DNA from: Brevibacterium permense
Lineage (GTDB): Bacteria > Actinomycetota > Actinomycetes > Actinomycetales > Brevibacteriaceae
NCBI RefSeq assembly: GCF_025506275.1
Contig: NZ_QYCP01000075.1
Coordinates: 1-64,000, forward strand
Direction of reading: 5' to 3'
DNA length: 64,000 nt
This document shows, in pieces, positions 39,640 to 45,816 of this stretch. The translations under genes were made by a program, and so were the position numbers. Below the pieces are notes generated by a model. The model was given only the letters and a program-made list of their open reading frames with translations, ran no database searches and was not told the origin of the DNA. Within the stretch, counting starts at the first letter, position 1; every line of letters begins with the position of its first letter.

Positions 39640-40224
39640 TCAGTCCTCGTGGCTGGGGAATCGGAGGAAGGGGGTTTCCTCCTCACCCTGCAACCGTATG
39701 TCGAAGTGCAGTGATCCGTCAGCCCCTCGAGTGGCGATGAGGCGGGCGCGCTCGTCTTCGTCGAGCGAGGATAGGAGCGGGTCAGCGGCTAGAGCCGCGG
39801 TGTCCTCGGGCAGATAGATGCGGGTGAACAGCCGGTTGAGCAGCCCGCGGGCGAAGATGACGACGCTGATGAAGGGTGCCTTGCCCGCCTCGGTGTGGCC
39901 GGGATCGACCGTGGAGAAGCTGAACTCGCCTTCCGGGTCGACGGCGGCGCGGCCGAAGCCGGTGAAGGTGAAGCCGTTGCGGCGCAGCGATCCCGTCTCG
40001 CGGGGGACAGCGCCGTGCTCATCGGGCTGCCAGATCTCGAGAATGGCATCGGGGACCGGGTCACCTGCCCCGTCGAAGACGGTTCCCGTCAGCTGCACGG
40101 CGCGAGCCGAGCCGGGCGGGACGAGCTCATTATCGTGCTCGAAGGGCAGTGCATAGCCGTAGAACGGGCCGACGGTCTGGCCCGGTGTCGGCGTGAGATC
40201 AGGGGTCGTGGGGGTGTCAGTCAT
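39640..40224 (-). CDS. pcaG: Protocatechuate 3,4-dioxygenase, alpha subunit
   Basis: 194 residues. Seen: TPGQTVGPFYGYALPF at the N-terminus, ILEIWQPDEHGAV, FSFSTVDPG and the C-terminal FTRIYLPEDT. The subunit keeps the fold of PcaH but lacks the Tyr/His iron ligands, as expected for the alpha chain. The start overlaps the pcaH end by 8 bases, giving coupled 1:1 synthesis of the dioxygenase subunits. Confidence 0.94.
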   Translation of the reverse strand: MTDTPTTPDLTPTPGQTVGPFYGYALPFEHDNELVPPGSARAVQLTGTVFDGAGDPVPDAILEIWQPDEHGAVPRETGSLRRNGFTFTGFGRAAVDPEGEFSFSTVDPGHTEAGKAPFISVVIFARGLLNRLFTRIYLPEDTAALAADPLLSSLDEDERARLIATRGADGSLHFDIRLQGEEETPFLRFPSHED

Positions 40225-41041
40225 CGTCCTCTTCTTCCATCCAGGTCCGGTTGGCACCGGTGAGCACGATGTCCCAGTTGTAGCCCATGAGGAATTCGTG
40301 CTCGGTGATGTTGTGGTCATAGGTCGCCACGAGGCGGTCGCGCGCCTTTTGATCGGTGATCGACTGGTAGATCGGGTCGAGAGCGAAGAGAGGATCCCCG
40401 GGGAAGTACATTTGGGTGATCATCCGCTGTGTGAACTCGGACCCGAAGAGCGAGAAGTGGATGTGGGCCGGTCGCCATGCGTTGTGGTGGTTCTTCCACG
40501 GGTAGGGGCCCGGTTTGATCGTCGTGAACGAGTAAGAGCCGTCGTCGCCGGTCAGGGTGCGGCCGACGCCGGTGAAGTTCGGGTCGATCGGGGCCGGGTG
40601 CTGGTCGCGTTTGTGGATATAGCGTCCGGCCGAGTTCGCCTGCCAGATCTCGACGAGCTGGTTGCGCACGGGGCGGCCTTCCCCGTCGAGGACCCGGCCG
40701 GTGACGCGGATGCGCTCACCGATGGGTTCGCCGTCGGCCTGGATCGTCAGGTCGGATTCGAGGGTGCCGATGTCCCGGTGTCCGAAGGCGGGGGAGAAGA
40801 GCTCGATCGTCTCGGGGTCGGTATGGCGGGGATCTTTCGTCGGGTGACGCAGGATCGATGACCGGTAGGGGCGGTAGTCCAGCCGCGGCTGGGTCTCGGG
40901 TTTCTTGCCGTCGGCGACATCCTGCTTGTACTGCGCTTCGATGCCGTCGATTTCGGCAGACAGAGTCGCCTGGGACTCGGCTGCGTCGTCGGGGCCTTTC
41001 ACAGTCTGATCATCGTTCTCCGAGGACTGGTGCTGACTCAT
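40217..41041 (-). CDS. pcaH: Protocatechuate 3,4-dioxygenase, beta subunit
   Basis: 274 residues. Iron ligands are visible: Tyr in SAGRYIHKRDQHPAP, Tyr in GPYPW and the two His of RPAHIHFSLFG. An N-terminal acidic extension of about 40 residues precedes the conserved region. Together with PcaG it is the Fe(III) intradiol dioxygenase that opens protocatechuate to 3-carboxymuconate. It follows pobA by 70 bp; AAAGG precedes the ATG. Confidence 0.95.
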   Translation of the reverse strand: MSQHQSSENDDQTVKGPDDAAESQATLSAEIDGIEAQYKQDVADGKKPETQPRLDYRPYRSSILRHPTKDPRHTDPETIELFSPAFGHRDIGTLESDLTIQADGEPIGERIRVTGRVLDGEGRPVRNQLVEIWQANSAGRYIHKRDQHPAPIDPNFTGVGRTLTGDDGSYSFTTIKPGPYPWKNHHNAWRPAHIHFSLFGSEFTQRMITQMYFPGDPLFALDPIYQSITDQKARDRLVATYDHNITEHEFLMGYNWDIVLTGANRTWMEEEDDD

Positions 41042-41111
41042 CGTCGAACCTTTCTTCGTCTCTTCGTCTTTTCGTCGGTTGACATCGTGGTGGGGTCGGT
41101 GGGGGAGCGGC

Positions 41112-42296
41112 TCAGCCGTGCGGCCAGCCCGTGTAGCACTCGGCCAGGTAGCGGCGACCGTGGTCGGATTCGAGAATGGACCGGAGTTCGCCGAGGCTGC
41201 GCTTCGTTTCGAAGGCATCCTGCGTCGGGTCGGTGTGGAGCATCCGTGTCATCTGGTACGAGAAGTTCTGAGCCTTCCACACGCGTTTGGTCGCGGTCTG
41301 CGAGTAGCCGGCCAGCGCCTCTGCGTCGGAGTCCTTGAGTGCCGAGATGAGGGCCGGTGCGAGCACGGCGACGTCGGCGAAGGCGAGGTTGAGACCCTTC
41401 GCTCCGGTCGGTGGGACGGTGTGGGCGCTGTCGCCGGCGAGGAACATCGAACCGTGCTGCATCGGCTCGGTCACGGCCGAGCGGAAGGGGAGCACGGTCT
41501 TGTCGAAGATCGGCCCGGTCTTGAGTTCGAATCCGTCGGGGCCGTCGACGCGGGCCTGGAGTTCGGTCCAGATCCGATCGTCGGACCAGTCGGCGACGTC
41601 GGTGTCGGGGGAAGCCTGGAAGTACATTCTCTGGACATTGTCGGAGCGCTGGGAAATCAGTGCGAAGCCGCGTTCGGAGCGGGAGTAGATGAGGACTTCG
41701 TGGCTGGGCGGGGCTTCGCAGAGGATGCCGAACCAGGCGAACGGGTACTCGTGGAAGAAGCGCTGCCGGGTGCCGTCGGGGATCAACGAGCGGCATGGTC
41801 CGCGGGAGCCGTCGGCGCCGACGACGTAACGGGCGTCGATGCGCAGTTCGTCGCCGCCCTCAGTGGTGGCGGTGACCCATGGGCGTTCGGTTTCGACATC
41901 GCCGAGGCGGGTGTCCGTGACCGAGTAATAGGTGGGGAGGCCGGTCCGTTCGCGGGCGGCGGAGAGGTCGACGAAGATCTCGTTCTGGGGGTAGAGCCAG
42001 ACGGATTCGCCGACGAGTTCGGGGAAATCGAAGTGGTTCGAGGCGCCGTTGACTCGGATGTCGATGCCGTCGTGGCGGTGCCCGTCCGTGTGGACGCGGG
42101 ATTCGACGCCTGCGGCCTCGAGCATGCGCACCGATCCTGCTTCGAGGATGCCGGCGCGGTGGGTGTGGGCGATGTCGTCGCGGCTGCGATTGTCGATGAC
42201 GACGGATTCGATGCCTGCATTGTGCAGCAGGTGCGCGAGCATGAGCCCCGCGGGTCCGGCGCCGACGATCGCGACGTCTGTCTGAAGTTGTGCCAC
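41112..42296 (-). CDS. pobA: 4-hydroxybenzoate 3-monooxygenase
   Basis: 394 residues, the usual PobA length. FAD motifs: VAIVGAGPAGLMLAHLL at the N-terminus, YVVGADGSRGPCR in the middle and FLAGDSAHTVPPTGAKGLNLA near residue 285. It hydroxylates 4-hydroxybenzoate to protocatechuate with NAD(P)H. Start is GTG 42296 with AAGGAGG 5 bases upstream. It is first gene of the leftward operon that continues through pcaH, pcaG, pcaB and pcaL. A 17-bp sequence shared with the iclR locus lies 65 bp upstream. Confidence 0.95.
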   Translation of the reverse strand: MAQLQTDVAIVGAGPAGLMLAHLLHNAGIESVVIDNRSRDDIAHTHRAGILEAGSVRMLEAAGVESRVHTDGHRHDGIDIRVNGASNHFDFPELVGESVWLYPQNEIFVDLSAARERTGLPTYYSVTDTRLGDVETERPWVTATTEGGDELRIDARYVVGADGSRGPCRSLIPDGTRQRFFHEYPFAWFGILCEAPPSHEVLIYSRSERGFALISQRSDNVQRMYFQASPDTDVADWSDDRIWTELQARVDGPDGFELKTGPIFDKTVLPFRSAVTEPMQHGSMFLAGDSAHTVPPTGAKGLNLAFADVAVLAPALISALKDSDAEALAGYSQTATKRVWKAQNFSYQMTRMLHTDPTQDAFETKRSLGELRSILESDHGRRYLAECYTGWPHG

Positions 42297-42597: not shown

Positions 42598-43203
42598 GTG
42601 ACGACAACCAAGACGCGTTCGCGCAAATTCAAAGCCATCCTCGCCGGTGGCATCGTCCTCGGCGTCGGCGCTGCCGTGACGCTGGCGGCCTGGACCGACG
42701 ACGAATGGGCCGAAGGTGTCTTCGGCGCAGGTTCATTCAACGTCCAGGGCAGCACCGACGGAACGACATTCGCTGACCATGAGAGCAGTGACGGTGCCGC
42801 GGCGCTGACTTTCGATCTCGATGGCGGGGACAACATGTCGCCCGGCGATACCGTGGCGGCTCCTTTCGTGCTGCGCCTCGACGGACCGACGAACTACGAC
42901 GCGGCCGTCTCTCTCGAGTCGGCGGCAGGCGGCGGGGACAACGCTGCGGCTCTGACCTACGCGATTGTTCAGGTCGACTCGGTGGGTGACTGCTCGGCCT
43001 CCGCAACGGGTACTTCCGTTGTGCCGGCGGGAACGGCGCTGGACTCGACCACGGGCGCTGCTGATTTCAATCTCACCGCGGGCGCAGACACTGCGACCGG
43101 CGACCCGGTCACGCTGTGCTTCCAGGTCACTGCCGGTGACTCGCTGGAACAGGGGCAGAACACCACCGCTCGGTGGCAGTTCACCGCGACCTCGGCCGAA
43201 TGA
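42598..43203 (+). CDS. SipW-dependent-type exported protein 1 (TasA/camelysin-like)
   Basis: 201 residues. The N-terminus is the alternative signal of SipW substrates: basic RSRKFK, then AILAGGIVLGVGAAVTLAAW followed by TDDEWAEGVFGAGSFNV, the typical WTD-x-E...G-F-AG block around the cleavage site. The mature part is Asp/Ser/Thr-rich with two Cys pairs possible and beta-strand-like alternation, as in TasA-type surface or fibre proteins. GTG start with AGGAG 6 bases upstream. It is first of four genes; the dedicated signal peptidase is the third. Confidence 0.82.
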   Translation: MTTTKTRSRKFKAILAGGIVLGVGAAVTLAAWTDDEWAEGVFGAGSFNVQGSTDGTTFADHESSDGAAALTFDLDGGDNMSPGDTVAAPFVLRLDGPTNYDAAVSLESAAGGGDNAAALTYAIVQVDSVGDCSASATGTSVVPAGTALDSTTGAADFNLTAGADTATGDPVTLCFQVTAGDSLEQGQNTTARWQFTATSAE

Positions 43204-43220
43204 CGACGCTGAGCTGATCG

Positions 43221-43919
43221 ATGAGGTCGCTTCTGCCGACGCTGTTTAAATTCTTCTCGTCCCGGCGGGTGTCTGAGGACGCCCGCCCGGTCCGTCGACG
43301 GCAGCTGCGTCAGCAACAGCTGCTGCGAGGCCGCCGCATCAAAGCGATTCTCGCCGGCGGCCTCGTCTTCGGCGTGGGCGCGACGGCCACGGTCGCCGCG
43401 TGGACGGACTCGGAAGAGGCCTCCGGCTCTTTCGAAGCCGGGCGGTTCAACATTGAGCTCCGGGCCGGCGGCGAATGGAACGGCACGAATGAGATGACCT
43501 TCAATGCGGGCAACATGTACCCGGGGCAGAAGGTCTACGCGCCAGTGTCAGTGCGCACCACGTCGAATACGTCGATCGACGGCAAGCTCACGGTCTCAGC
43601 ACGCGGTATCTCCAATCCGAATACCTTTGCCTCTGCACTCACATACCGAGCCGTGGCCCGATCAACGTCGGGTGTCACCTGTAACGCGGGCAATTTTCCT
43701 GGTCAGGGCGCCTTCGTCTTCGGCAGCGCTACTGCTGCAATCCCGCTGAGCTCCACGCCGACAGCAGACACCACCCAGACCCTCAAAGCCGCCTCAGCGT
43801 CGGTCCAGGACTATTGCTTCGAGGTGACACTGGCAAGCAACGCTCCGAGCTCTGCCCAAGGTCTGCAGTCGAGCCACACCTGGACGTTCACAGCCGAGTC
43901 CACCGCGCCGGGGAATTGA
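43221..43919 (+). CDS. SipW-dependent-type exported protein 2
   Basis: 232 residues. After an unusual basic N-terminal extension of about 38 residues comes RIKAILAGGLVFGVGATATV and AAWTDSEEASGSFEAGRFNI, nearly the same signal as in protein 1, so the two are paralogues in that part. The mature domain has two Cys and many Ser/Thr/Asn and looks like a secreted beta-sandwich. It is 17 bp after gene 1 and 2 bp before the signal peptidase gene. The long basic extension could be partly untranslated if a later start is used, but no other good start is seen. Confidence 0.8.
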   Translation: MRSLLPTLFKFFSSRRVSEDARPVRRRQLRQQQLLRGRRIKAILAGGLVFGVGATATVAAWTDSEEASGSFEAGRFNIELRAGGEWNGTNEMTFNAGNMYPGQKVYAPVSVRTTSNTSIDGKLTVSARGISNPNTFASALTYRAVARSTSGVTCNAGNFPGQGAFVFGSATAAIPLSSTPTADTTQTLKAASASVQDYCFEVTLASNAPSSAQGLQSSHTWTFTAESTAPGN

Positions 43920-43921
43920 CC

Positions 43922-45274
43922 ATGGCGGGCTCTATGACACGCAAGAGAAACGTGGGTTCATTGCTGGGCGGGGCCGTGCTCAACATCCTCGCCGTCCTCG
44001 GCGTGGTCTGCATCGTGCTCGGCATCCTCAGCTTCGTCTTCAACATATCGATCATCATGTTCAAAACCGGGTCGATGAGTCCGACGATCCCGGCCGGATC
44101 GGCCTCGCTCGTCCGTGAGATCCCCGCCGAAGAGATGGAAGTCGGTGACATCGTCACCGCCGATCGCGGGGAGAAGGTCCTGCCGGTGACCCACCGCGTC
44201 ACTGAGATCCAGAGCATTGACGACTCCACCGGTGCCGTGACCTTTGAGATGAAGGGCGACGCGAACGCCGAGAAGGACCCTGACCCCTACACCGCCGAGA
44301 CGGTCCGAACGGTGATGTTCTCCATCCCCGGGGTTGCTCCGATCCTTCAACAGTGGCGCAACCCGTTCCTGCTCGGCGGCATCACGATCGCGGCCAGCCT
44401 CCTCGTCGTGTGGGCATTCTGGCCACGACGCGATGAGGATGACGACAACACCCTCGCCGAGGCGGCCCGCCCCAGTGCGCGGTCACCGCGGCACGCAATC
44501 GCGCTGCCGATGGTGGTGGCCGTGACTGCGGGTGGGCAGATAGTGCCTGGGGTGTCGTTCGCCGAGGATGCTCTGCCCGTAAACGCTGATCATTCCCTGT
44601 CCGCGTCGTCAGGAGCGACAGATGACATCCTGCGAATGCGCGACTTCGGGGATATCGAGAAGATGCGCCACCTCAGTCCTGGGGCATCGGCCACATGGAC
44701 GGTTGATATCTGGACCGACGCCTCCGAACCGGGAGATATAACGGTCTCAATCGGGTCGGGGGCAGGGGCGGAGGCGCTGACGGATTCGCTGTCGATCGAT
44801 GTGCGGGAATGCGCGATGACTGAAGCGGAGGACCCGTGTCCAAGCGGTTCGCAGATGTTGATTCGCGGAATGGTGCTCAGCGAATTGGAGCCGGCTGCTG
44901 ACGACGGTCTCACCCTGCTGGAAATGGACAGCGATGACTCTCGCCGAATCGAGGTAACGGCGACTCTCGCTGGCGACGCTGATGTCCGCGCGGTAGCTGG
45001 CGCCACGGCGGGTGTGCGCGTGCTGGCGGAAGGACTCGGCGACAAGGTTTCGACAGGGCCAGGAGATCCCGGGGATCCAGGTGATCCTGGCGCGCCGGGC
45101 GATTCCGGCTCTGATTCTGATGGCACTGTCGAGGGCGCGGCCGATGCCGGCGGTTCCGGCGAGCTGCCGTGGACCGGAATCGATGGTTGGCAGTGGATTC
45201 TGCTCGCAGCATTCTTGCTCGTTGTCACCGGCTCAGCGATCGTGTCGCGAACCAGGAAGGCGAGGCTGTCATGA
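43922..45274 (+). CDS. SipW-type signal peptidase I fused to an LPXTG surface domain
   Basis: 450 residues. Residues 1-190 are an ER/SipW-type signal peptidase: membrane helix 20-45, nucleophile Ser51 in GSMSPTIPAG, catalytic His91 in VTHRV (Ser-His instead of Ser-Lys), KGDANAEKDPDP as the conserved Asp box, then a second helix. After RRDEDDDN and a basic SARSPRH stretch comes a second signal-like hydrophobic segment ending VSFAEDA (about 195-225), a 180-residue extracytoplasmic domain, a GDPGDPGDPGAPGD spacer, and LPWTG (415-419), a hydrophobic helix and RTRKARLS, a full sortase sorting signal. This layout is unusual. The start follows the gene-2 stop by 2 bases. Confidence 0.85.
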   Translation: MAGSMTRKRNVGSLLGGAVLNILAVLGVVCIVLGILSFVFNISIIMFKTGSMSPTIPAGSASLVREIPAEEMEVGDIVTADRGEKVLPVTHRVTEIQSIDDSTGAVTFEMKGDANAEKDPDPYTAETVRTVMFSIPGVAPILQQWRNPFLLGGITIAASLLVVWAFWPRRDEDDDNTLAEAARPSARSPRHAIALPMVVAVTAGGQIVPGVSFAEDALPVNADHSLSASSGATDDILRMRDFGDIEKMRHLSPGASATWTVDIWTDASEPGDITVSIGSGAGAEALTDSLSIDVRECAMTEAEDPCPSGSQMLIRGMVLSELEPAADDGLTLLEMDSDDSRRIEVTATLAGDADVRAVAGATAGVRVLAEGLGDKVSTGPGDPGDPGDPGAPGDSGSDSDGTVEGAADAGGSGELPWTGIDGWQWILLAAFLLVVTGSAIVSRTRKARLS

Positions 45275-45816
45275 CTTGCAGGAACTCGCCGCGACAATCT
45301 TGGAGACGAGCTCGTCTGCTGTTGGCAGTAGTCGCATTGCTCGCCCTCGTCGCCGGTCCAGCCGCAGTCAACGGCACCCTCGCCGGTTGGAATGATGAGA
45401 AGATAAGCCAGGGGGCGTTCACTGCGGGCAAGGTCCCAGCACCGGTGTTGACCGGCAAGTGCCAGTTCCGTCCGGGTCTTCTTGGTATCGGTGCTAGTGT
45501 GCGAGTCTTTTGGAAGCCTCCGGCGGGTTACTCACTCAGCAACATCGTTGTCACTGCATCTACGAGCGGTCTTGGGTCCGTCCTGGCACCGATCACCGGC
45601 TTCAATCTGACATCGAACACGACCTCGAACAGCGATGGATCGTACACGACAGACGTGCCCACCAACCTACTTGGCGGATTGCTCGGACTCGGATCCGAAT
45701 TGGAGTTAGCCTTTCAGGCCAGACATGCCAGCGGTTGGGTTTCCACATCTGCCTCTGTCGCTAGCAACGCCGGGCTGCTGGGCGGAATCGGCGGAAACTG
45801 TCGCAATCTGACGTGA
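45271..45816 (+). CDS. SipW-dependent-type exported protein 3
   Basis: 181 residues. Basic N-terminus RQSWRRAR, hydrophobic LLLAVVALLALVAGPAAV, then NGTLAGWNDEKISQGAFTAGKV, the same kind of block after the signal as in proteins 1 and 2 but more divergent. The mature region has two Cys (KCQF and NCRN) that could form a disulfide linking its ends, and Gly/Leu-rich GLLGIG-type repeats. The start overlaps the signal peptidase stop as ATGA. It is the last gene of the cluster, followed by a hairpin. It is probably a minor subunit or anchor of a surface structure. Confidence 0.78.
   Translation: MTCRNSPRQSWRRARLLLAVVALLALVAGPAAVNGTLAGWNDEKISQGAFTAGKVPAPVLTGKCQFRPGLLGIGASVRVFWKPPAGYSLSNIVVTASTSGLGSVLAPITGFNLTSNTTSNSDGSYTTDVPTNLLGGLLGLGSELELAFQARHASGWVSTSASVASNAGLLGGIGGNCRNLT

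Follow-up and report, generated by a model that had tools for sequence, protein, structure and literature searches.

A SipW-type signal peptidase joined in one chain to a predicted wall-anchored domain in Brevibacterium, with fused and split relatives across the order

Introduction

The operons tapA-sipW-tasA of Bacillus subtilis and sipW-tasA/calY, with CapP, of Bacillus cereus share a dedicated Ser-His signal peptidase, SipW, clients with SipW-type signals, jelly-roll subunits and one extra surface component. Knowledge of TasA-type fibres comes mainly from Bacillus, from other Firmicutes and from archaea; their attachment to the wall is unsettled. To our knowledge, TapA and CapP carry no sortase signal. 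TasA-type filaments are started by TapA and CapP (PMC10151520, PMC13082335), and CapP filaments have been described as sortase-independent (PMC13082335). Polymers are the products of the known SipW operons (PMC9674648, PMC7395162). In the sipW-bsaABCRSD locus of C. perfringens, SipW likewise adjoins its client genes, one of which encodes a polymer-forming client; SipW is required to export the TasA-like BsaA, the neighbouring srtB can be deleted without effect, and BsaA lacks an LPXTG motif (PMC7395162).

Two further systems resemble parts of the locus described here. Streptococcal pilus clusters likewise combine a protein of signal peptidase fold needed for assembly, SipA, with a sortase-anchored basal pilin; S. 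pyogenes SipA is without catalytic residues (PMC4049620). These clusters differ in that SipA is a separate protein and the pili are built by a sortase. The fbcH gene of Bradyrhizobium, encoding the cytochrome b/c1 precursor, joins a membrane protein and a secreted protein in a single chain that contains an internal signal sequence; its products are respiratory proteins, and its cleavage is experimentally established.

The DNA analysed here, a stretch of 64,000 nucleotides from Brevibacterium permense (the window), contained an operon that resembles those of Bacillus in its SipW-type peptidase and client signals and in its predicted jelly-roll subunits and surface component. SipW is a separate protein in Bacillus and in C. 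perfringens, whereas in Brevibacterium the extra component is fused to it and carries an LPXTG signal. The one-chain design resembles that of fbcH, although cleavage of the fusion is only predicted. Each of the parts is known, but a search of the open-access literature gave no published account of the fusion, nor of such an operon in Actinobacteria; apparently neither a SipW operon with a sortase-anchored partner nor the repeated joining of that partner to the peptidase is described there.

Results

Organization of the operon and its clients

Reading of the open frames in the window revealed a four-gene operon on the + strand (42598-45816), encoding client A, client B, a fusion of SipW to a C-terminal domain (cdom), and client C. 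Clients A and B were separated by 17 nt and client B and the fusion by 2 nt, while the fusion and client C overlapped by 4 nt (ATGA). On the - strand upstream, divergent genes at 40217-42296 resembled, by eye, an intradiol ring-cleavage dioxygenase and a 4-hydroxybenzoate-type monooxygenase, and were unrelated to the operon.

The initial annotation had proposed a tight operon with three SipW-type clients, and this was borne out, with weaker evidence for the third client. Client A (42598..43203, +; GTG start, 201 aa), a predicted fibre subunit, had a SipW-type signal (LAAWTDDEWAEGVFGAG) followed by a jelly-roll body and matched TIGR04088, the model of the SipW-type signal, at 35.7 bits (cut-off 19). 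Client B (43221..43919, +; 232 aa) was homologous to client A (hhalign probability 99.9%) and also scored above the cut-off, at 36.6 bits. These two were the only TIGR04088 proteins in the genome. Client C (45271..45816, +; 181 aa) gave no match in the family scan; hhalign profiles aligned its signal region to that of client A (P 1e-7) and that of client B (P 3e-11) across 45-48 columns, and its body was different. The position of client C after the fusion was the same in most Brevibacterium copies.

The AlphaFold2 model of client A (pLDDT 77.7) showed a jelly-roll preceded by 14 disordered residues at the mature N-terminus. In VIA alignments it matched TasA (5of2) with Z 7.1 at rank 2, a value inside the background range, and FimG-like pilins with Z of about 6.9, also at background level. 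A Foldseek search with the model at 0.001 returned nothing. The TasA/camelysin family PF12389 (Peptidase_M73) was absent from the whole genome, while the B. subtilis control matched.

Architecture of the SipW-cdom fusion

The fusion (43922..45274, +; 450 aa) began with a SipW-type signal peptidase domain (residues 1-170; 43922..44431), assigned by TIGR02228 and hydropathy, with a first transmembrane segment, the residues Ser51, His91 and Asp113, and a second transmembrane segment ending in WPRR. Ser51 and His91 lay where the initial annotation had placed them, making the catalytic residues of the Ser/His rather than the Ser/Lys type. TIGR02228 matched residues 24-130 at 59.1 bits (cut-off 51.85), and the motifs TGSM, THR and GDAN were conserved across all aligned fusions. 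The score against the Bacillus SipW equivalog NF046067 was 44.1 bits, below its 190-bit threshold.

The peptidase domain was followed by a linker, acidic and then basic, which is predicted to be cytosolic and varied in length in the alignment (residues 171-191; 44432..44494), and by a third hydrophobic stretch, either a membrane segment or an internal signal peptide, ending in VSFA (residues 192-214; 44495..44563; hydropathy). Its core followed RSPRH, contained Pro and was short (13-residue mean 2.1, 19-residue mean 1.7). Beyond it lay cdom, a predicted extracellular beta-sandwich with two conserved Cys (residues 234-376; 44621..45049), and a Gly/Pro/Asp-rich spacer of variable length in the alignment (residues 377-413; 45050..45160).

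The chain ended with a sorting signal conserved in relatives (45161..45271), in which an LPXTG-like motif, LPWTG (residues 415-419; 45164-45178), was followed by a hydrophobic stretch and a basic tail (LPWTGIDGW...RTRKARLS). LPWTG or LPRTG was kept in Brevibacterium, and LAxTG or LPxTG was found in other families. TIGR01167 scored the fusion at 10.6 bits, below its cut-off of 15.9, and PF00746 matched 6 of 26 relatives (best 7.4e-5). The genome had one sortase, of class E (249.5 bits), distant from the operon (L101:4719-5960); its neighbours, judged by eye, were a pabA/trpG-type glutamine amidotransferase and, nearby, a rhomboid-like gene. Class E sortases usually take LAXTG, a preference that agrees with the signals of family f11 and some of f19 better than with the LPXTG found in Brevibacterium.

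Conservation within Brevibacterium

Among 57 Brevibacterium genomes (that of the window and 56 relatives), 24 had the fusion as a single open frame with the same gene order, client A, client B, fusion, client C. The nearest named relative found was B. sediminis, with 88% identity over the fusion. The peptidase thus runs on into the second signal-like segment, domain, spacer and LPWTG signal as first annotated; a stop and start between the peptidase and the LPXTG part was sought and none was found. Since the frame is open end to end in 24 genomes of one genus, chance and sequencing or assembly error were ruled out as its source.

The cdom is under purifying selection; dN/dS between close pairs was 0.11-0.39 for cdom and 0.13-0.25 for the peptidase. 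In the alignment of the C-terminal part, nine columns were invariant even across families, one of them a Cys, and a second Cys was present in more than 90% of rows. The possibility that this part is a random, unconserved extension was rejected on its conservation, on dN/dS and on its independent occurrence as a separate gene.

Two Brevibacterium genomes (G032 and G016; loci L102 and L103) had clients A and B, SipW and client C without any cdom, so the system does not always require it. Two further loci (L105, L106), in fusion-bearing Brevibacterium genomes, were second and distant SipW operons that had clients and no cdom.

Fused and split forms across the order

A profile of the C-terminal part was searched against 396 genomes of the order, and the loci were re-read with wider flanks. 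The SipW/cdom module was present in at least five other families, either fused, as in families f6, f11, f13 and f19, or split. In the split form, a stand-alone secreted cdom protein, usually with LPXTG or LAXTG, adjoined or lay near a stand-alone SipW and clients, as in L075 (A, B, cdom, small client, SipW) or in L088 and L091 (A, B, SipW, cdom). In total, 36 loci were fused and 13 were split, and two f11 genomes had both a fused and a split paralogue (L076/L099 and L078/L100). A non-exhaustive sample of the class beyond this order, searched at E 1e-10, gave no families other than those already seen.

On a SipW tree of 55 rows, several of them long-branched, the fused or split state required at least six changes, at least four of which were forced by the starred branches. 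A single clade of fused proteins was rejected (p-AU 0.0139), with the reservation that several branches of this tree are long. Because cdom is a separate secreted protein elsewhere, the fusion brings together two genes that already belonged to one operon; on the evidence of the tree, this joining of neighbouring genes arose or was lost several times. Two Brevibacterium fusions (L021, L022) grouped with f11 at low support, a placement that hints at possible horizontal transfer.

Cleavage at the third segment

The initial annotation had offered two ideas for the fusion, namely that it tethers fibre assembly to the wall, or that it releases a further exported protein by self-cleavage at VSFA-EDA. 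The third segment occupies the same position as the signal peptide of the stand-alone cdom relatives, and that signal peptide is a normal one. Cleavage sites were scored with a simple home-made -3/-1 matrix on cores placed by eye, rather than with a trained predictor. By this measure a strict AXA was present in 13 of the 14 split cdom proteins, in 7 of the 12 fusions of other families and in 5 of the 24 Brevibacterium fusions. Most f11 fusions had GHA-E/D at the AXA position, and about ten species of one Brevibacterium clade had no acceptable site. Scores of the Brevibacterium fusions were below those of the split proteins (Mann-Whitney p 3.6e-5) and of the other-family fusions (p 0.016), p values that are only a guide because the species are related and not independent.

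The particular site VSFA-EDA did not hold up as a conserved one: it occurs in the genome of the window and only the closest species come near it, three of them with SFA/SIA-ED and B. sediminis with WFA-ED, in which the Trp at -3 is disfavoured. The short 13-residue core with Pro, which is like that of a signal peptide, and the AXA of relatives favour cleavage in general over the order. The segment is probably the signal peptide that cdom inherited, and its cleavage likely persists wherever AXA has been retained. Most Brevibacterium have an eroded AXA and no clear site, which speaks against simple cleavage in this genus, where the peptidase may be permanently tethered. Of the two ideas, release appears the better supported across the order, judged by the site motifs.

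Predicted fold of cdom and its relation to the clients

The AlphaFold2 model of cdom, built from ten sequences, was nearly all beta, with a domain of about 140 residues (pLDDT 82.4, pTM 0.80). Its best Foldseek match in the PDB was the TasA fibre 8aur (E 1.2e-4, TM 0.47), and the list also held the archaeal bundling pilus 7ueg (E 5e-3), whose system has been reported to be related in structure to TasA (PMC9674648). In VIA alignments the N3 domains of staphylococcal MSCRAMMs came first (Z 9.7), and TasA reached Z 7.7. Beta-sandwiches are a common fold.

By sequence, cdom had no match in the PDB, and its Pfam scan gave weak unrelated names only, apart from the LPXTG anchor. A first profile comparison with client A gave a weak match. 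With a broader set, cdom aligned with client B over 125 colinear columns (hhalign P 1.7e-4, probability 49%), against P 0.4-0.6 for reversed-profile controls. These profile matches are suggestive of homology between cdom and the clients; together with the models, whose fold matches are middling, they point to a probable TasA-like fold common to both.

Discussion

We consider it reasonably probable that the locus is an operon of the TasA/SipW type in which peptidase and wall-anchored subunit became fused on repeated occasions. Clients A and B, predicted jelly-roll subunits of fibre type, would use their SipW signals for export, and the peptidase half of the fusion would mature them, by analogy with the SipW of Bacillus and Clostridium, which matures TasA-like proteins (PMC9674648, PMC7395162). 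The cdom, a distantly related and probably TasA-like beta-sandwich, would be inserted as a second translocated unit; its old signal peptide may be cut, where the site survives, by the housekeeping signal peptidase or by the fused one itself. The class E sortase would then join cdom to peptidoglycan. There cdom may serve as a wall anchor or assembly platform that receives or starts the client fibre, in the manner of TapA or CapP.

Other readings were weighed against this one. It is doubtful that the operon makes SipW-dependent monomeric surface proteins whose clients form no fibres. The client folds do match pilus subunits only at background-level Z, as this reading would have it, but polymers are what known SipW operons make (PMC9674648, PMC7395162), and client A has the disordered mature N-terminus followed by a jelly-roll that is found in donor-strand subunits. 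The cdom might instead be an independent MSCRAMM-like wall adhesin that shares a transcript and a chain with SipW and has no fibre role, since VIA matched it best to the N3 domains of LPXTG adhesins from staphylococci. We regard this as quite unlikely: cdom is kept with SipW and the clients across families, fused or split, and its best Foldseek match is a TasA fibre.

The remaining alternative concerns Brevibacterium, where the third segment might stay uncut and cdom would fix the active, membrane-embedded peptidase covalently to peptidoglycan, so that processing and assembly take place at one site. The lower cleavage scores, with about ten species siteless, speak for such a permanent link, as does the longer linker that follows the third segment in this genus. 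The short Pro-containing core, however, is nearer to a signal peptide than to a membrane anchor, split relatives manage without the link, and wall growth would presumably pull on a membrane protein joined to the wall. No multi-span membrane protein linked to the wall is known to us, and we consider this reading unlikely. More specific, and improbable in our judgement, is the proposal that in Brevibacterium the site was lost after fusion and that the peptidase, held covalently at the wall by a TasA-like subunit, both matures the fibre subunits and starts the fibre there; if true, the fusion would be a single protein that serves a Gram-positive fibre as both processing and anchoring station.

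If the reading of a TasA/SipW-like operon with a wall-anchored subunit is correct, a large group of Actinomycetes would have a system of the TasA kind that is explicitly and covalently anchored to the wall. That anchor and peptidase were fused repeatedly is evolutionary evidence that the two act together. Naturally fused, split and cdom-less versions occur within one genus or order, which makes the question of anchoring directly testable. The presence of the fusion in many Brevibacterium and relatives hints at how such fibres may be tied to the wall.
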